Positions 3,915 through 47,855 of a DNA stretch of 48,944 nt are shown here, in pieces. Under the pieces are notes generated by a model. The model saw nothing but the letters and a program-made list of their open reading frames with translations, did not search any database and was not told where the DNA came from. The DNA comes from Haliea sp. (GTDB taxonomy: Bacteria > Pseudomonadota > Gammaproteobacteria > Pseudomonadales > Halieaceae). The stretch covers positions 1 through 48,944 of the forward strand of contig JANQUV010000004.1 of the NCBI GenBank assembly GCA_030730585.1, given 5' to 3'. Every line of letters begins with the position of its first letter. Positions within the stretch are counted from its first letter, which is position 1. Both the position numbers and the translations under genes were made by a program.

Positions 3915-5057
3915 ATGCGCATCGCAATTCCGAGGGAGACGCATCCGGGCGAAAACCGGGTGCCGGTCACACCTGAGACGGCCAAGAAGTTGTGTCGTTT
4001 GGGCGCTGACCTGGTAATTGAAAACGGGATGGGTTTGGGTTCCGGTTTTACCGATGAAGAATATGTTGAGGCGGGTGCTACGTTAAGCGCCGATCGCGAG
4101 GCCTTATTCCGCGATGCGGATATGCTGCTGCGTTTGCGCAAGCCCGAAAAAGCTGACATCGCCTTGATGAAGGCCGGCTGCATACACATTAGCTACCTCG
4201 ACCCCTTCAATGAGCACGACCTGGTGCGTACTCTGCAGCAGCAGGGTGTTACCGCTATCAGTATGGAAATGATTCCGCGCACCACCCGCAGCCAGAAAAT
4301 GGATGCCTTGAGTTCACAGGCAAACCTGGCCGGTTATGTGATGGTGCTGCAGGCAGCGACGCATTTGCCGCGCATTTTCCCCATGATGATGACTCCGGCG
4401 GGCACCCTGAAGCCAGCCAAGGTGTTCGTGATCGGTGCAGGGGTAGCCGGTTTGCAGGCGATTGCAACGGCGAAGCGTTTGGGCGCCCGAGTGACGGCGT
4501 TTGACACCCGTCCGGTGGTGGCGGAGCAGGTTCATTCGCTGGGCGCTACCTTTCTGGATATCGACCTGGGGCAAACCGGTGAAACGGCAGGTGGTTATGC
4601 CACTGAGCTGACCCCGGAGCAGATCCAAAAGCAGCGCGATGCGCAGAAAGCGACCATCGCCGACTCTGATGTGGTGATTACCACGGCGCAGGTGTTTGGG
4701 CGCAAGCCTCCGGTCATTGTGACCCGCGATATGGTGGAGGGTATGAAGCCAGGGTCGGTAGTGGTCGATATGGCCGCAGAAACAGGCGGTAATGTTGAAG
4801 GCTCTGTGCCCAACGAGGTGGTTACCGTGAATGGAGTCACCATCATTGGCAAGGGCAACCTGCCCAACGAAGTGTGCCGCGACGCCAGCCTTATGTATGC
4901 CAACAATCTGTTTAACCTGGTAGATGACGCCTGGGACAAAGAAAGCAACGGGTTCAAAGTCGATTTCGACCACGACATCCTGCCCGGCTGCATCATTACG
5001 CACGGTGGCGAAGTCACCAACGTTACGATCAAAAATATCCTGGAGGGGGGCAACTGA
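3915..5057 (+). CDS. pntAA: NAD(P) transhydrogenase, alpha subunit part 1 (NAD(H)-binding domain)
   Basis: A 380-residue soluble domain I of the proton-translocating transhydrogenase, with an alanine-dehydrogenase-like fold. The N-terminus MRIAIPRETHPGENRVPVTPETA is diagnostic. The NAD-binding Rossmann loop is VFVIGAGVAGLQAIATAKRLGA (about residues 171-192). The complex couples proton re-entry to hydride transfer from NADH to NADP+, supplying NADPH. A strong AGGAAG ribosome site precedes ATG 3915. The next gene starts one base after the stop, as in split alpha-subunit systems of alpha- and many gammaproteobacteria; in E. coli the two alpha parts are fused. Confidence 0.95.
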   Translation: MRIAIPRETHPGENRVPVTPETAKKLCRLGADLVIENGMGLGSGFTDEEYVEAGATLSADREALFRDADMLLRLRKPEKADIALMKAGCIHISYLDPFNEHDLVRTLQQQGVTAISMEMIPRTTRSQKMDALSSQANLAGYVMVLQAATHLPRIFPMMMTPAGTLKPAKVFVIGAGVAGLQAIATAKRLGARVTAFDTRPVVAEQVHSLGATFLDIDLGQTGETAGGYATELTPEQIQKQRDAQKATIADSDVVITTAQVFGRKPPVIVTRDMVEGMKPGSVVVDMAAETGGNVEGSVPNEVVTVNGVTIIGKGNLPNEVCRDASLMYANNLFNLVDDAWDKESNGFKVDFDHDILPGCIITHGGEVTNVTIKNILEGGN

Positions 5058-5058
5058 T

Positions 5059-5340
5059 ATGGACGCCGTATTCCTGACCTTTATTCTCATGCTGTCGATT
5101 TTTCTGGGCTTCGAACTCATCTACAAAGTACCGGCGACCTTGCACACGCCGCTGATGTCTGGCGCTAACGCGATTTCGGGTATCACTGTTGTGGGTGCGA
5201 TTGGCCTTGCAGGCACCGGCCAGCACGATATCGCCCAGTGGCTGGGTGCAGGCGCAGTCGCCTTGGCGACGATTAACGTAGTCGGTGGCTACATGGTGAC
5301 TGATCGCATGCTTGCGATGTTCAAGAAGAGGGGTAAATAA
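5059..5340 (+). CDS. pntAB: NAD(P) transhydrogenase, alpha subunit part 2 (membrane domain)
   Basis: A 93-residue membrane protein carrying the short transmembrane part of the alpha subunit. It has three hydrophobic helices: VFLTFILMLSIFLGFELIY, a middle segment around ISGITVVGAIGLAG, and ALATINVVGGYMVTDRML, ending in a basic FKKRGK tail. The start is ATG 5059, inside a longer open frame that begins within pntAA. It is preferred because GGAGGGGGG lies just upstream and the membrane segment begins immediately. The gap to pntAA is one base and to pntB two bases, so the three subunits are translated together in the inner membrane complex. Confidence 0.93.
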   Translation: MDAVFLTFILMLSIFLGFELIYKVPATLHTPLMSGANAISGITVVGAIGLAGTGQHDIAQWLGAGAVALATINVVGGYMVTDRMLAMFKKRGK

Positions 5341-5342
5341 TC

Positions 5343-6707
5343 ATGGGTGCAACCGCATTGGGCATTCAGTTGGCGTATGTCATCTCGGCGGCGCTGTTTA
5401 TTTTCGGCCTCAAGCTTCTGGGCTCTGCGGATACCGCGCGTAAGGGCAACCTGCTTTCTGCTGTCGGCATGCTGCTGGCAATCGTTGCTGCCTTGCTGGA
5501 TCAGGGTATCGTCGAATTTCAGTGGATTATGGCGGGCATGTTACTGGGTGGTGTGATTGGTGCAGGCGCAGCGCGCCTGGTACAAATGACCTCCATGCCA
5601 GAGATGGTGGCTTTGTTTAACGGCTTCGGCGGTATGGCGAGCTTGCTCGTTGGCGCAGCAGCCTTGGGTGCGGGCGACAACAATACCTTCATCCTGGTCA
5701 CCATCGTTTTGTCGATTTTGATTGGTGGGCTTACCTTCACCGGCTCGCTGGTCGCCTACGGCAAACTGAGTGAGCGCATTGGCAGCGGTGCAGTCACCTT
5801 CCGTGGCCAGCAGGTTGTTAACAGCCTGTTGGTGATGGCGATTCTGGGCAGCGCCGTGATGTTTTGCCTGCAGCCCGAAAATAGCCAGTGGCTGTATGCC
5901 ATTATCGCCCTGTCGCTGCTTTTTGGGGTGATGGCGGTGATCCCTATCGGCGGTGCAGATATGCCGGTGGTGATCTCCCTGTTGAACTCCTACTCGGGCT
6001 TGGCGGCTTGCGCCGCGGGTTTCGCAATTCACAACAACATCCTGATTGTGGCCGGTTCGCTGGTAGGTGCCTCGGGCATCATCCTCACGCAAATCATGTG
6101 TAAGGCGATGAACCGCTCCTTGAGCAACGTGTTGTTCAGTGGCTTTGGCGGCGTGACCAGCTCCGAAACCGTGGTAGAGGGCGAAATCAAGCCAATCTCG
6201 GTTGAGGACGCGTTCTACATCCTGGAAGCTGCCAGTAGCGTGGTGATTGTACCTGGCTACGGCATGGCGGTTGCTCAGGCGCAGCACGTGGTGAAGGAAT
6301 TTGCCCTGTTGCTGGAGAAGAATGGCTGCGAAGTGAACTTTGGTATTCACCCCGTCGCGGGACGTATGCCCGGGCACATGAACGTACTGTTGGCTGAAGC
6401 GGACGTGCCCTACGACCAGCTGTTGGAAATGGACGAAGTGAATCCGCGGATGGAAAACGTCGATGTGGCAATTGTAATTGGCGCCAACGACGTGGTGAAC
6501 CCGGCGGCACGTGAAGTTGAGTCCAGCCCCATTTACGGTATGCCCGTGATCAACGTGGACAAGGCGCGCACGGTGTTCGTGCTCAAGCGCTCTATGGCTT
6601 CAGGCTTTGCCGGTATCGAGAACCCCTTGTTCTATAAGGAAAACACTCGCATGCTGTTTGGTGATGCGAAGGAAAGCATTGCTGGGCTGGTTCGCGAGCT
6701 GAGCTGA
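5343..6707 (+). CDS. pntB: NAD(P) transhydrogenase beta subunit
   Basis: A 454-residue beta subunit. Roughly the first 260 residues are a series of transmembrane helices (domain II) carrying the proton path. The C-terminal 180 residues form the NADP(H)-binding domain III, seen in VIVPGYGMAVAQAQHVVKEF, the HPVAGRMPGHMNVLLAEA stretch and VIVIGANDVVNPAA, all highly conserved in PntB. It completes the pntAA-pntAB-pntB operon. It faces an ABC exporter gene convergently, with a GACCCTG/CAGGGTC hairpin between them. Confidence 0.95.
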   Translation: MGATALGIQLAYVISAALFIFGLKLLGSADTARKGNLLSAVGMLLAIVAALLDQGIVEFQWIMAGMLLGGVIGAGAARLVQMTSMPEMVALFNGFGGMASLLVGAAALGAGDNNTFILVTIVLSILIGGLTFTGSLVAYGKLSERIGSGAVTFRGQQVVNSLLVMAILGSAVMFCLQPENSQWLYAIIALSLLFGVMAVIPIGGADMPVVISLLNSYSGLAACAAGFAIHNNILIVAGSLVGASGIILTQIMCKAMNRSLSNVLFSGFGGVTSSETVVEGEIKPISVEDAFYILEAASSVVIVPGYGMAVAQAQHVVKEFALLLEKNGCEVNFGIHPVAGRMPGHMNVLLAEADVPYDQLLEMDEVNPRMENVDVAIVIGANDVVNPAAREVESSPIYGMPVINVDKARTVFVLKRSMASGFAGIENPLFYKENTRMLFGDAKESIAGLVRELS

Positions 6708-40690: not shown

Positions 40691-41425
40691 ATGCACAAGG
40701 ATCTGCGCCCTTATTGGCTAAAGCAAACCTATCTGCGCTACCGGCGCTGGTATGCGGACTACTTTCTGCGCCCACGGTGCCGTTATCTGGGGCCCTTTCA
40801 TACTATTATGAAGCCTTGGTATGTGCATATTTCCGGCGCCAATATTCATATTGGCCGCTGCTTCACGGCTATCGGTGAACCCATGCACCGGGTGCAGATT
40901 GGTGTTTGGGGCCGGGAGGAGGGTGAGGGCCGTATTCATATTGGTGACTGCGTGCTGATGAGCCCTGGTGCGCGGCTGAGTGCCAGCGACGAGATCGTCA
41001 TTGGCGATGGTGTGATGTTCGCCAATGGCGCTTATGTCACGGATTCTGACTGGCACACGCTCTACGACCGCACGGCGCGAGCCAGCGAAGCCACGCCGGT
41101 GCACATCGGTGACAACGTGTGGTTGGGCGACCATGCCACGGTCCTCAAGGGCGTGACCATTGGCGCCAATAGCGTGGTGGCGGCGCAGGCGGTGGTCACC
41201 CGGGACGTGCCGGCCAACGTGGTAGTGGCGGGCAACCCGGCTCGTGTGGTGAAAGAGCTGGATCCGGAGCGTGGCTTCACCACCCGTATGGATCTCTTTG
41301 CAGACCCAGCGGGTGCAGAAGCTTTTTTTGATGCGGTTGACCGCGAGGTGCTGCGGGGTAACTCGCTGCTGCGCTGGCTGTGGTCGGTGGTGTATCCCGC
41401 CGGTGCCAGGGAGCCCTTACAGTAG
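40691..41425 (+). CDS. Hexapeptide-repeat (left-handed beta-helix) acyltransferase
   Basis: A 244-residue transferase of the NodL/CAT-like family. The beta helix is visible in repeated [LIV]-G-x4 hexads: GANIHIGRCFTAIGE, GRIHIGDCVLMSPGARLSA, IVIGDGVMFANGAYVTDS, VHIGDNVWLGDHATVLKGVTIGANSVVAAQAVVTRDV, ending AGNPARVVKE. His in DSDWHTLYD is the likely catalytic base. A basic, aromatic N-terminus (LRYRRWYADYFLRP) could sit on the membrane. The acceptor is unknown; sugars, lipids and xenobiotics are all used in this family. It overlaps the convergent srkA gene by nine bases. Confidence 0.82.
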   Translation: MHKDLRPYWLKQTYLRYRRWYADYFLRPRCRYLGPFHTIMKPWYVHISGANIHIGRCFTAIGEPMHRVQIGVWGREEGEGRIHIGDCVLMSPGARLSASDEIVIGDGVMFANGAYVTDSDWHTLYDRTARASEATPVHIGDNVWLGDHATVLKGVTIGANSVVAAQAVVTRDVPANVVVAGNPARVVKELDPERGFTTRMDLFADPAGAEAFFDAVDREVLRGNSLLRWLWSVVYPAGAREPLQ

Positions 41426-42454: not shown

Positions 42455-43174
42455 TCAGGTCGGTGGCGGTGGTGTGCGTGCCAGGCACCACAGTTGAACA
42501 TCCTCAGCCCCGGCTGCTTTGAGCTCGCGAGCAATAGCTTCGCCGGTTGCGCCGGTGGTCATAACGTCATCGATAACTGCGATGCGCTTCCCCGCTACAG
42601 CGCCTTTGAGCGTGAATGCGCCGCTCAGGTTGCGCGCGCGCTGCTGGGCGTTGAGGCTGGACTGGGCAGGTGTTGGCCGGCAGCGGCGCAGCAGCCGGTC
42701 TTGCAGCGTGACGCCTGCCAGTTCAGGGGCGAGCTGCTGAAGTGAGCCTGCCAGCAGGCTGGCCTGATTGAAGCCGCGCCGCAGCAGGCGGCGCCAGTGG
42801 ATGGGGACTGGCAGGAGCATGTCCCGGTCCTGCGGCGGGTCAACGGCTGCCAGCCACAGGCAGGCCAGTAGCCCGCTCAAGCGGCGCTGGCCCTGGAATT
42901 TCCACTGGCCGATCAGGTAGCCGAGATGCGGTTCGTAAATGAACGGTGCAAGCACACCGTCCAGCAGCGGAGGCTGCTCCAAACAGGCGGCACACAGGGC
43001 AGGGCCGCCCTCAGGCAGGGGTAGGGCGCAGTGATAGCAGCTGCAACGGTTTTCGACCAACTGCGCCGCGCATTCAGTACACAACGGCAAGGGGTTAGCG
43101 CTGGGCAAGCGGCACAGCAGGCACAGCTGCGGGAAGAGTGCGTCAACGAGCTGATTACGCCACTTGTTAACCAT
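42455..43174 (-). CDS. comF: ComF family phosphoribosyltransferase-like protein
   Basis: A 239-residue ComF/GntX protein. The N-terminal double zinc ribbon has cysteines in [18 protein letters not shown] and [10 protein letters not shown], and the C-terminal phosphoribosyltransferase domain has the PRPP loop [18 protein letters not shown]. ComF is needed for DNA uptake during transformation in competent bacteria, probably moving single-stranded DNA or loading recombination factors. It is divergent from bioB with only a short gap; the BirA operator covers its first codons, so biotin status could affect it. Together with pilMNOPQ it is compatible with, but does not prove, natural competence. 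Confidence 0.92.
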
Positions 43175-43196
43175 ATGCCCTGCCCCAGGTTGACAG
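43164..43196. promoter_or_regulatory. BirA operator (biotin repressor box) in the comF-bioB divergent region
   Basis: The inverted repeat TTGTTAACC (43164-43172), a 15-base spacer and GGTTGACAG (43188-43196) match the BirA consensus TTGTAAACC-N14-16-GGTTTACAA at 8 of 9 and 7 of 9 positions. The right half overlaps the bioB -35 (TTGACA, 43190-43195) and the left half lies in codons 1-4 of comF. Repression of bioB by BirA-biotinyl-AMP is strongly suggested. Confidence 0.8.
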
Positions 43197-43217
43197 CAAG
43201 CGGCGGCGGATTATCAT
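43190..43217 (+). promoter_or_regulatory. Sigma-70 promoter of the biotin operon
   Basis: A consensus TTGACA (43190-43195), a 16-base spacer and TATCAT (43212-43217) form a strong promoter. Transcription would start near 43224, so the ATG at 43216 cannot be the bioB start on this transcript; the ATG at 43252 fits. Confidence 0.75.
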
Positions 43218-43251: not shown

Positions 43252-44337
43252 ATGAATGCTCCTGTTACTGCTACCGCGTCTGCTATGCCCTCAGCCCAGA
43301 GCTCAACGCCTGCCTCAGCGACGCCCGCCGCTGTTCGCCATGACTGGAGCCGGGGAGAAATCGAGGCACTGTTGGGCCTACCCTTTAATGATCTGCTGTT
43401 TCGCGCGCAGAGCATTCACCGCACTTATTTTGACCCAAACGAGGTGCAGGTCAGCACACTACTTTCCATCAAAACCGGCGCCTGCCCCGAAGATTGCGCC
43501 TATTGCCCGCAGAGCAACCGCTACGACACTGGGCTGGAAACCGAAAAACTGATGGAAGTGGAGAAGGTGCTGGCGCAGGCACAGGCGGCCAGAGCCAGCG
43601 GCGCCACTCGATTCTGCATGGGTGCGGCGTGGCGCTCGCCGAAGGCCCGTGACATGCCCTATGTGGTCGCGATGGTCAAAGGCGTACGCGAAATGGGCCT
43701 GGAAAGCTGTATGACACTGGGCATGCTCACCGAAGCGCAAGCACAGGAGCTGGCAGAGGCCGGCCTCGACTATTACAACCACAACCTGGATACCTCACCT
43801 GAGTATTACGGAGAAATCATCACCACTCGCACCTACAAAGATCGCTTGGACACCTTGGGGCACGTACGTCAGGCGGGTATGAAGGTGTGCAGCGGTGGCA
43901 TTGTGGGTATGGGTGAGTCGCAGCGCGACCGCGCAGGCCTGTTGCAGCAGCTCGCCAATCTCCCGGAGCACCCCGAGAGCGTGCCTATCAATATGCTGGT
44001 GCGGGTAGAAGGCACCCCCCTGGCGGACGAGGCTGATCTGGATCCTTTCGATTTCATCCGCACCATCGCGGTCGCCCGCATTTTGATGCCCGCGTCGCAC
44101 GTGCGCCTGTCAGCGGGGCGTGAGTCGATGAACGAACAGATGCATGCCCTGGCCTACTTTGCCGGCGCCAACTCCATTTTTTACGGCGAAAAACTCCTTA
44201 CCACGCCGAACCCACAGGCAAATGAAGACATGGCGCTGTTCAGCCGCCTTGGCATTCGGCCGGAGCAGCGCGAAGTGGCGCAGGCCCCCGAGGCGCCCGA
44301 GCCTCGGTTCTACAACGCCGTTCAAGCGGCGCACTAG
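43252..44337 (+). CDS. bioB: Biotin synthase BioB
   Basis: A 361-residue radical SAM enzyme inserting sulfur into dethiobiotin. The SAM-cluster motif is CPEDCAYC (Cys78, Cys82, Cys85 from this start). Other signatures are [11 protein letters not shown], the [13 protein letters not shown] block, [11 protein letters not shown] and the Arg of RLSAGR that binds the 2Fe-2S cluster. An Ala/Ser/Thr-rich N-terminal extension precedes the conserved [13 protein letters not shown]. The start at 43252 is used because an upstream in-frame ATG (43216) overlaps the promoter -10. It is the first gene of bioBF-HC-D and is controlled by the BirA box. Confidence 0.96.
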
Positions 44338-44351
44338 CGCCGACAGCGGTG

Positions 44352-45545
44352 ATGGAAGCGTTCCCGCAGCGTCTTCTGGCGATGCTGGAGGCGCGCCGTG
44401 AGGCAGGTTTGTACCGCCAGTGCTTGACGCTGGAGTCGGCGCAGGGGCCGCTGGTGCGCCTTGAGGGCCGCGAGTATCTGAATTTTTGCAGCAACGACTA
44501 TTTGGGCCTTGCTGCACATCCGAAAGTGATCGCGAGCCTGCGCGATGCTGCAGTACAGTGGGGTGTCGGGAGCGGGGCCTCGCATTTGGTGTGTGGGCAC
44601 AGCAGCCCTCATCGTGCGTTAGAGGAAGCCTTGGCGGAGTTGACCGGCAGGCCGCGAGCACTGCTCTTCTCCAGTGGTTATGCCGCCAACACCGGTATTC
44701 TGCAGGCGCTATTGCAGCCGGGCGATAACGTGCTGCAAGACCGCCTGAACCACGCCTCACTGTTGGATGGCGGTTTGCACAGCGGGGCGCGGATGCGCCG
44801 CTTCGCACACAATGACTGTGCAGACTTAGCGCGCAAGCTGGCCAGAGCTGGCGTCACCGGCACTGATGGTCGTGACAGCGGCGCGGTGCTGGTGGCGGTC
44901 GACGGTGTTTTCAGCATGGACGGCGACAGTGCACCGCTCGCTGAGCTGGCCGCCACCTGCGCTGCACATGGCGCCTGGTTGATGGTCGATGATGCTCACG
45001 GCTTTGGCGTGCGCGGCAGTAGCGGCGCGGGCAGCGTGCAAGCGGCGGGGCTGGGCGAGCCGGATGTGCCGATACTGATGGCGACACTGGGCAAAGCTCT
45101 GGGTACTTCGGGTGCCTTTGTGGCGGGCAGTGAACTGCTCATCGAGGCGCTTATTCAGTCGACTCGCAATTATATTTACACCACGGCCATGCCGCCGGCG
45201 TTGGCGGCGGCTAGCCTGACTGCGTTGCAGGTGCTACACGAAGAGGCTTGGCGCCGCGATCATCTCAATAGCCTGATTGTTCAGTTTCGCCACGGCGCGC
45301 AACAGTGCGGATTACCTCTGCTTGATTCCAGCAGCGCGATACAACCCTTGCTGGTGGGCGAGCCTGAACGCGCCCTGCAGCTCAGCCAGCGCTTGCGTGA
45401 GCGCGGCCTGTTGATCAGCGCCATTCGCCCGCCGACGGTTCCCGCAGGCACCTCGCGGCTGCGCATTACGCTGAGTGCGGCACACACGCCGGCGCAAGTA
45501 GTCAGGTTACTGGATGCGTTGACGGAGTGCTGGCAGGGTGCCTGA
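44352..45545 (+). CDS. bioF: 8-amino-7-oxononanoate synthase BioF
   Basis: A 397-residue PLP enzyme condensing pimeloyl thioester with alanine. Signatures are [58 protein letters not shown] and the PLP-lysine segment [19 protein letters not shown] 44349 is one codon upstream and could also be used. The gap to bioB is 14 bases, and the 3' end overlaps the BioH/BioC fusion by eight bases, indicating coupling. Confidence 0.95.
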
Positions 45546-47187
45546 CCCCCAAGCGCGCTGTGAGTTTCTTCCGGCACAAGGCCAGCCCCGTGCTGAGCTT
45601 GTGTTATTGCACGGCTGGGCCAGCAGCAGCGCATGCTGGCGGCCAGTGCTGGCTTTTTTGCGTATGTGGGCAAATGTCACCCTGATTGACTGGCGCCCGG
45701 CTGCGGTGTCAGCTGTGAGTGCAGTCGCTAACGCTGGTGACGATGGCTTGCAGAGTGTGCTCGACGATATTCTTGCGCTTACGCCAGCCCGTGCCTACTA
45801 CGTGGGCTGGTCTCTGGGTGGGCAGTTGGCCACTGTTCTGGCCGCACGCGCCCCTCAGCGTGTCGCGGGGCTGGTCACTGTTGCCAGCAATCCGCGTTTT
45901 ACCGCTGATGGCAGTTGGCCAGGCGTGCCCCCCGCTACGTTGGGCGGTTTTCAGGCGAGCCTTGCAGCCGATGCGGCGCGCACCTTGCGGCGTTTTGCGG
46001 TGTTGCAGTCCCAAGGTGGCGCGACTGCCGCGACGCTGGCGCGCGAGTGGGTTGCACAGAGTGCTGACTGGAGCCCCTCTTCGCTCGCCAGAGGCTTGCA
46101 ATGGCTTGCTGAGCTGGATACTCACAGCCTTTTGCCCGCGCTGACATGTCCGCAGCAACACTTGCTGGCGCAATGTGATGCGCTAGTGCCGGAAGGGGCC
46201 GCTGAGGCTCTCAGTGATCTGCTCGCCAACACCCCCGGTGCCTCGGTGCAGATGCTTGCGGGGGCGCCCCACGCAGTGCCTGCGCAGACGCCTGTCGCCT
46301 TGGCCGATGCCCTGGCTGTATTTGTTGGGGCGGCCCTCGCCGGGGCGGCCCATGCGGAGCCGGCCCCGGTTAGTAAGCAGGCGATAGCCCAATCCTTTAG
46401 CCGCGCGGCGCCACGCTACGACAGCGTCGCCGCGCTGCAGCGTGATGTGGGTGAGCGCCTGCTTCGCGATATATCCAGTAACGACAACGCGAGCGACGGC
46501 GGCACTGGTGAGAGCAGTAGCAGTGGCAATAGCCCCGCCACCGTGTTGGACCTGGGCTGTGGCACGGGCTTTTTTCAGCCACACCTGATGGCACGCTACG
46601 CCGGGGCGGCCTATCTGGGGCTTGACCTTGCTCAGGGCATGCTTGCGTGGGCCCGACAACAGCATCCACAGGGCACCGTTTGGGTAGCCGGTGATGCGGA
46701 GTCGTTACCTCTCCTGGAGGGCTCCATTGATGTCATTTTCAGCAGCCTGGCGTTTCAATGGTGCTATCGCCCGAGTGTTCTTTTTACAGAACTGGGCCGC
46801 GTACTGGCGCCGGGGGGGAGCTGTTACTTTAGTTCCTTGGGGCCCGCCACTTTGCAGGAATTGCGTGCGTCTTGGGCGGCCGCTGATGGTGGCCAGCACG
46901 TCAACGACTTCTTGCCAGCCGAGGTATTGCAGGCCGTGGCCGCGGCAACACAGGGCGTGCGTCTCACCTTACGCAGCGAACGCATCGTGTTGCGTTACCG
47001 CAAAGTGACCGAACTGCTGCATGAGCTGAAAACCCTGGGGGCACATAATATGAACAGCCAGCGGCCAGCGGGCCTTACTGGCCGACAGCGGCTGGCAGCG
47101 ATGATGCAGGCCTATGAAGATTGGCGGGAACCCGAGGGCCTGCCCGCGACTTACGATGTGATCTACGGGCATTTGGAGAAGATATGA
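45538..47187 (+). CDS. bioC: BioH-BioC fusion: pimeloyl-ACP methyl ester esterase plus malonyl-ACP O-methyltransferase
   Basis: A 549-residue fusion of the enzymes that open and close the pimelate stage. Residues about 15-265 are an alpha/beta hydrolase of BioH type: oxyanion LLHGWASSS, nucleophile Ser92 in GWSLG, Asp214 in QCDALVP and His245 in GAPHAVP, so the triad is complete. An alanine-rich linker leads to BioC from about residue 279 ([17 protein letters not shown]), with SAM motif [11 protein letters not shown] (336-346) and the FQWC and FLPAEV blocks of BioC. A Ser/Gly/Asp-rich insertion (about 313-333) precedes the SAM motif. The GTG start overlaps bioF; the stop overlaps bioD as ATGA. 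BioC methylates malonyl-ACP to enter fatty acid synthesis; BioH removes the methyl group at the pimeloyl stage. Confidence 0.93.
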
Positions 47188-47855
47188 AGCGCACTTATTT
47201 TGTGACCGGCACCGACACTGAAGTGGGCAAAACGGCAGTCAGTTGCGCACTGCTGCAGGGGGCAGGCGCGCTTGGCCTGCGCACTGCTGCCGTCAAGCCG
47301 GTTGCCGCGGGCTGTGACGAGCAGAGACGCAATGACGATGCGCTGGCATTGCAGGCCGCGATGAACACGGCATTAGCCTACGAACAAATCAATCCGGTGG
47401 CGCTGCAACCGGCCATCGCGCCGCATATTGCAGCTGCGCAAGCTGGCCGGCGCTTGCAGGTTGAACGTTTGGCGGGCCTCTGTCGGGGCGTTTTTGCCGG
47501 TGGTGCCGGCCTCACGCTGGTAGAGGGTGCCGGCGGCTGGCGCGTACCTCTGGGCCCGCGGGAAACGCTGGCTGACTTGGCGGTGGCGCTCGGAAGCGAT
47601 GTGATTATGGTGGTCGCTATGCGCTTGGGGTGCATCAATCATGCGCTGCTAACGGCTGAGGCGATACGCTCAGATGGCCTGCGTTTGGCCGGTTGGGTGG
47701 CCAATCAGCCAGGTGAGCGCATGGTATGCCATGAAGAAAATGTGGACACTTTGCGCCATTGGTTGCCCGCGCCGTTGCTGGGTGAGCTGCCATACTTATC
47801 GCCTTTTGATCCGGTTGTCGCTGCGCAATACCTTGATGTAAAAGCACTTTTATAA
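47184..47855 (+). CDS. bioD: Dethiobiotin synthetase BioD
   Basis: A 223-residue ATP-dependent carboxylase closing the ureido ring of dethiobiotin. The P-loop is YFVTGTDTEVGKTAVSCALL (residues 5-24), followed by VKPVAAGC and the VEGAGGWRVPLG catalytic block. ATG 47184 overlaps the fusion-gene stop as ATGA; a longer frame inside the upstream gene was rejected. It ends the operon. bioA is not in the window, so the 7,8-diaminopelargonate step must be encoded elsewhere, as in many gammaproteobacteria. Confidence 0.95.
   Translation: MKRTYFVTGTDTEVGKTAVSCALLQGAGALGLRTAAVKPVAAGCDEQRRNDDALALQAAMNTALAYEQINPVALQPAIAPHIAAAQAGRRLQVERLAGLCRGVFAGGAGLTLVEGAGGWRVPLGPRETLADLAVALGSDVIMVVAMRLGCINHALLTAEAIRSDGLRLAGWVANQPGERMVCHEENVDTLRHWLPAPLLGELPYLSPFDPVVAAQYLDVKALL

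Follow-up and report, generated by a model that had tools for sequence, protein, structure and literature searches.

Does one gene in the biotin operon of a Haliea sp. (Halieaceae) truly encode both BioC and BioH, the methyltransferase and the esterase of pimelate synthesis, and if so, does its product act as both enzymes, and how widely is such a fusion found? An initial annotation of the window, by which we mean the whole 48,944-nucleotide stretch of DNA analysed (positions 1 to 48,944 of contig JANQUV010000004.1), had read the frame in question as a BioH-BioC fusion in a single polypeptide, with Ser92, Asp214 and His245 of the esterase and the BioC SAM site in place. The phylogenetic spread of the fusion and the chance of a missed stop codon or frameshift between the two domains were raised there as points to be checked.

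One open frame between bioF and bioD

The gene, termed here bioHC, runs from a GTG at 45538 to a TGA at 47185-47187, a frame of 549 codons with no internal stop (Table 1). The profiles of both families, TIGR01738 for BioH and TIGR02072 for BioC, matched within this uninterrupted frame, confirming that one polypeptide carries the two enzymes, and in the order that had been proposed, namely a BioH-type domain at residues 16-260, followed by a linker of about 25 residues and then by BioC at residues 286-548. We take the UniProt-style name for such a protein to be 'bifunctional protein BioHC'. When the protein was given to AlphaFold with four relatives (five sequences in), the resulting model had a mean pLDDT of 45.8 and a pTM of 0.39, values too low to inform on domain packing.

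bioHC is part of a tightly packed operon, bioB-bioF-bioHC-bioD, all of it on the forward strand, and a bioA gene (595.9 bits) lies outside the operon, elsewhere in the same genome; with bioB, bioF, bioD and this bioA in place, the biotin pathway is complete on paper. As far as sequence reaches, both domains and the biotin operon around them support the role in pimelate synthesis that had been assigned to the protein. Upstream of bioB we observed a BirA-operator-like palindrome, scored against the BirA-operator consensus, and, overlapping it, a sigma-70-like promoter-like site that is suggestive only. Together these two sites (43164-43217) extend into the start of a divergent ComF/GntX-like gene. 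Away from the operon, the window also carries transhydrogenase genes at 3915-6707, where a short PntA of 380 aa, aligned to positions 1-367 of a 510-position model, precedes PntB; the alpha subunit is thus probably divided between two genes. Two other long open frames, at 70-1443 on the reverse strand and at 40691-41425 on the forward strand, gave no NCBIfam match at the E-value limits applied (1e-20 and 1e-30).

Table 1. Positions in the window of the biotin operon, its upstream sites and the parts of bioHC (residue numbers refer to the bioHC product)
Feature	Position	Strand	Remarks
BirA-operator-like palindrome	43164..43196	+	3 mismatches to the consensus; 1 match in the window vs 0.02 expected; 2/100 shuffles reach it
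Sigma-70-like promoter, TTGACA-N16-TATCAT	43190..43217	+	11/12 matches; 2 such sites in the scanned stretch vs 1.3 expected in shuffles
bioB (biotin synthase)	43252..44337	+	TIGR00433, 411.7 bits (cut-off 225); in-frame ATG at 43216 also a possible start
bioF	44352..45545	+	TIGR00858, 465.5 bits (cut-off 426.45); stop overlaps bioHC start by 8 nt
bioHC (fused BioH-type esterase / BioC malonyl-ACP O-methyltransferase)	45538..47187	+	549 aa; single open frame; TIGR01738 and TIGR02072 in one protein
BioH-type alpha/beta-hydrolase domain, residues 16-260	45583..46317	+	TIGR01738, 132.5 bits; PF00561, 50.8 bits; PDB matches led by BioH structures
Ser92 codon, predicted catalytic (GWSLGG)	45811..45813	+	Ser in 94/94 fused proteins
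Asp214 codon, predicted catalytic	46177..46179	+	Asp in 94/94 fused proteins
His245 codon, predicted catalytic	46270..46272	+	His in 94/94 fused proteins
Linker, residues ~261-285	46318..46392	+	Ala/Pro-rich; median identity to relatives 0.20 (residues 263-282)
BioC SAM-dependent methyltransferase domain, residues 286-548	46393..47181	+	TIGR02072, 208 bits, above cut-off
Ser/Asn/Gly-rich stretch before motif I, residues ~313-332	46474..46533	+	In alignments, 14-15 residues longer than in four named relatives
SAM-binding motif I, VLDLGCGTG, residues 336-344	46543..46569	+	D338 and G340 in 94/94
bioD	47184..47855	+	TIGR00347, 155.1 bits (cut-off 83.3); start overlaps bioHC stop as ATGA

The two halves of the protein and its predicted activity

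The BioC half was matched by TIGR02072 over the full length of the model (positions 1-244 of 244), with 208 bits against a cut-off of 184.95, and of the 11 BioC matches in the assembly only that of bioHC exceeded the cut-off. Across 94 aligned fused proteins (the window's own included; 90 of the sequences distinct), Asp338 and Gly340 of motif I, the acidic Asp363 and the pair Gln407-Trp408 were invariant, in line with the claim that the SAM site is intact. A few other fused genes carry different long stretches at the site before motif I where bioHC has its Ser/Asn/Gly-rich one.

The N-terminal half was matched by TIGR01738 at model positions 2-242 of 245 (132.5 bits, E 1.8e-38), and its best solved relatives were the BioH structures 4nmw, 1m33, 6k5e and 4etw. 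Ser92 (in GWSLGG), Asp214 and His245, the three residues singled out by the initial annotation, were indeed present and aligned with chain positions 82, 207 and 235 of 1m33, an E. coli-type BioH structure, positions that we take to be its catalytic triad. Each of the three was identical in all 94 fused proteins. A Ser-His-Asp triad at the BioH positions and a GWSxGG nucleophile motif are thus found in a domain that is fused to BioC and encoded between bioF and bioD.

The score of this half, however, misses the NCBI BioH equivalog cut-off of 206.95 bits. All six fused proteins tested, the bioHC product among them, fell below this value, as did one of three free operon BioHs, the other two scoring above it, indicating that the cut-off does not track fusion alone. 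Given the low score, we refer to this half as BioH-type and as probably working like BioH, a claim that does not depend on the name. We also compared the lid arginines 138, 142, 155 and 159 of E. coli BioH, which we take to be ACP contacts: three of them are kept in the bioHC product (Arg148, Arg152 and Arg169), and the fourth, aligned with E. coli Arg155, is replaced by Ala165, at a position occupied by Arg in 62 and by Lys in 15 of the 94 fused proteins. Both the sub-cut-off score and this alanine, where most fused relatives have Arg or Lys, count against the predicted bifunctionality.

For the closest distinct pair of relatives, we obtained dN/dS of about 0.018/0.073 (BioH half) and 0.018/0.081 (BioC half), indicating purifying selection on both; in comparisons that use the window gene itself, silent sites are near saturation. 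The BioH half evolves faster than the BioC half, the median identity of relatives to the window protein being 0.38 and 0.48, respectively, and lower still in the linker (Table 1).

The esterase score leads to the alternative that survives best, namely that the polypeptide is fused and yet its esterase half is not the physiological esterase, having drifted, or with another alpha/beta hydrolase acting instead. The genome, with 18 PF00561 and 10 TIGR01738 matches, would offer substitutes, and the available part of PMC3494674 describes esterases of different families filling the demethylation step in different bacteria. Nevertheless, the triad shared by all 94 fused proteins and the purifying selection on both halves speak against it, as does the observation that bioHC is the genome's best BioH match (runner-up, 86.9 bits) and that BioC is fused wherever it exceeds the cut-off in the family, along with the presence of bioB (see below). 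We therefore regard this alternative as quite improbable.

It could also be that the two activities reside on separate chains in the cell, with BioC freed by an internal start or by proteolysis. In-frame start-type codons occur in or near the linker in 65 of the 94 fused genes, preceded by a Shine-Dalgarno-like string in 9 and lacking one in 56, and bioHC itself has four such codons (237, 239, 247 and 255) where the BioH half ends. Yet no in-frame ATG, GTG or TTG was found between codons 256 and 303 of bioHC, which leaves BioC without a start site in the linker, and in 29 of the 94 fused genes the region searched is free of start-type codons. A split of this kind would be very improbable.

In all likelihood, then, the bioHC product works as a bifunctional enzyme, and there is every reason to expect, with high confidence, that it is the BioHC enzyme of pimelate synthesis, in which BioC methylates malonyl-ACP and the BioH-type half demethylates pimeloyl-ACP methyl ester; we infer the two activities and the preference for chain length from homologues. 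In the mechanism that we propose, the C-terminal BioC would methylate the free carboxyl of malonyl-ACP with SAM as donor, making it acceptable as a primer for fatty acid synthesis, and the ordinary FAS II enzymes would then carry out two elongation cycles. The N-terminal BioH-type half would use Ser92-His245-Asp214 to hydrolyse the pimeloyl-ACP methyl ester, which would stop elongation and release pimeloyl-ACP for BioF, encoded directly upstream. The fusion would ensure that the first and the last dedicated enzyme are made together and in a 1:1 ratio, and the chain-length preference of the esterase would avert premature demethylation.

Spread of the fusion and number of its origins

The fused gene was found in four named Halieaceae records, at 73, 73, 63 and 50% identity to that of the window; three of these are titled metagenome assemblies and one is strain Pseudohalioglobus sediminis NY5. 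Among 140 genomes of the family, 57 matched at E 1e-20, 56 of them in one frame (four holding the same sequences as the four named loci, and one, G021, counted from two overlapping pieces of that same frame) and one, G016, as a partial match, beyond which the contig stops after 13 bases. BioC exceeded its cut-off in 56 of the 140 genomes, in frames of at least 512 amino acids, and was fused in every one of them. All 56 BioHC genomes also contained bioB, and 54 contained bioF above cut-off, the remaining two (G033 and G041) having partial, sub-cut-off bioF matches.

As a separate observation, bioB was detected in 67 of the 140 family genomes, none of which belongs to the large genus g21, and in 11 genomes it occurred without a complete BioHC; neither BioC nor bioB exceeded the cut-off in 73. 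Many of these genomes are incomplete, and with this proviso the counts suggest biotin auxotrophy as a common trait in the family. Two family genomes, G016 and G052, had bioF above cut-off without a complete BioHC. In G052 a bioA-bioF-bioD-like cluster (L200, 3350-6477; bioF scored by model, bioA and bioD read from translations) has no bioC or bioH beside it, and BioC was not found in this genome at E 1e-15; being 88% complete, G052 may simply be incomplete, as an alternative to a pimelate source other than BioC.

Beyond the family, at least 96 of the 390 order genomes surveyed had both domains in one stop-free frame, spanning 14 families including the Halieaceae (a lower bound, being the matches listed, counted by hand, with handles checked for doubles). 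Among the matches listed for 369 genomes of the class, G671 was the one additional fusion outside the order, and ten spans of both domains contained one or two internal stops. A selected, non-random set of 168 loci (L025-L192) was inspected frame by frame, and three of them were dropped, two for having no strong BioC (L029 and L030) and one as a duplicate (L131). The remaining 165 comprised 94 fused loci, 66 with separate genes and five with BioC but no BioH in the examined piece. The esterase came first in all 94 fused loci, the distance between the BioH and BioC profile matches ranged from 16 to 45 residues, and fused and separate states never occurred together within one family of this sample. 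The five loci whose examined DNA piece has BioC without a BioH-like gene (L107, L109, L110, L126 and L185, from the class or the order) are candidates for other esterases or for a bioH located elsewhere.

Several class genomes have BioC in frames of 500-676 amino acids with an unaligned N-terminal part, and these were considered as other esterase-BioC fusions and rejected as such. Of 20 class loci inspected for this question, most of them of the long-frame type, L131 (G671) was a true BioH-BioC fusion, and BioH was a separate open reading frame in 18 of the other 19; the last, L126, yielded no BioH. Seven long frames, including that of L126, were scanned with Pfam, which gave methyltransferase families only and nothing before the BioC part. 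These frames look like chance extensions.

The idea that faulty sequencing or assembly has joined two normal genes, through an overlooked stop or a frameshift, deserves next to no credence: an assembly of 136 contigs and 90.5% completeness may contain local errors, and in most of the class loci examined bioH and bioC lie side by side as separate genes, but the same one-frame fusion recurs in the four named records and in the family and order genomes counted above, so that an error of this kind between the domains is excluded, and the profile-match distances in the 94 fused loci likewise count against such an error. The bioHC fusion is therefore real and conserved.

How often the fusion arose is less clear-cut. 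An LG+G4 tree of 139 rows (76 fused and 63 split; 21 of 160 two-domain rows were left out as near-copies) required at least six changes between the fused and split labels, three of them forced by well-supported branches, and a PMSF tree of 66 rows hand-picked from the 139 required three, one of them forced. For these 66 rows, the AU test did not reject a single fused clade (p 0.583), a group named after a tree had been seen, and the constrained tree was 4.84 log units better. Backbone support is weak, and one origin with a few fissions or a few origins are both possible; residue differences between fused and split proteins are confounded by phylogeny. A single origin across a large part of the order, with the fused form then kept in 14 or more families owing to a benefit of covalent linkage as such and not as a neutral accident of two overlapping genes, is in our view rather doubtful. 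If the link did matter, it might do so, for example, by passing ACP between the sites or by fixing the ratio of the two steps. The fused and split relatives form a natural set in which to ask whether tethering the first and last pimelate enzymes changes flux or specificity.

Comparison with known fusions and with separate BioH and BioC

Cellvibrio japonicus and Saccharophagus degradans are, we believe, members of the same bacterial order as the window organism. BioHC fusions have been named in both (PMC9894557), in agreement with the remark in the initial annotation that fusions of these activities are on record. In these two species a single fused gene of similar length replaces adjacent bioH and bioC; in the available part of that source the fusions are known from genes, and the H-C domain order can be gathered from the name and from the neighbouring bioBFHCD type. 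The window gene belongs to the same class (PMC9894557), as a single bio-operon gene with a BioH-type and a BioC domain stands where two neighbouring genes would otherwise lie. Within the open-licence literature searched, as far as its texts were available, BioHC fusions were named in PMC9894557 only, and an activity measurement on any BioHC was not found. The 'bioHCA' of PMC6505512 was considered as a fusion and rejected, being a gene set in the part of the text available, and the available parts of PMC7026016, PMC9909488 and PMC11089781 contain nothing on such fusions. The window copy is distinguished from those of C. japonicus and S. degradans by its family, Halieaceae, by its 549 amino acids and by the Ser/Asn/Gly-rich stretch before BioC motif I.

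A Pfam scan of the bioHC product at E 0.001 returned eight matches, none of them to the BioG family, for which Pfam, we assume, includes a model; bioHC is thus set apart from the BioG-BioC fusions. The B. fragilis BioGC is alike in fusing an esterase to BioC in the biotin pathway, it substitutes for E. coli bioC as well as bioH and has esterase activity in vitro (PMC3494674), but its esterase is BioG, whereas that of bioHC is BioH-type. Moreover, among the Bacteroides genomes of those authors, BioGC was carried only by those of B. fragilis (PMC3494674, available part), whereas BioHC is the sole BioC form found in the Halieaceae genomes surveyed. Separate bioH and bioC genes of the Pseudomonas bioBFHCD type (PMC9894557, PMC5438404) have the same B-F-H-C-D order and the same enzymes, but on two chains.

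These systems also bear on the warning that an esterase attached to the methyltransferase risks a futile cycle unless acyl-chain length is well discriminated. Free BioHs leave the succinyl-ACP methyl ester uncleaved and cleave the C5 substrate poorly (PMC5438404), and BioGC leaves the C3 substrate uncleaved and has trace activity only on C5 (PMC3494674), according to the available parts of these sources. The measured specificity of free BioHs and BioGC therefore makes the cycle unlikely for enzymes of this type and, by analogy, for the bioHC product.

To summarize, a fused esterase-BioC protein of this kind is already in print, so that the architecture is not new and the function is ordinary, and the known picture of biotin synthesis is left unchanged. 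What is absent from the literature examined, as far as its texts were available, is the order-wide spread of the fusion and its possible single origin: in the family, BioC was found only in the fused BioHC form, and the fusion extends far more widely than the two species named in the available part of PMC9894557.
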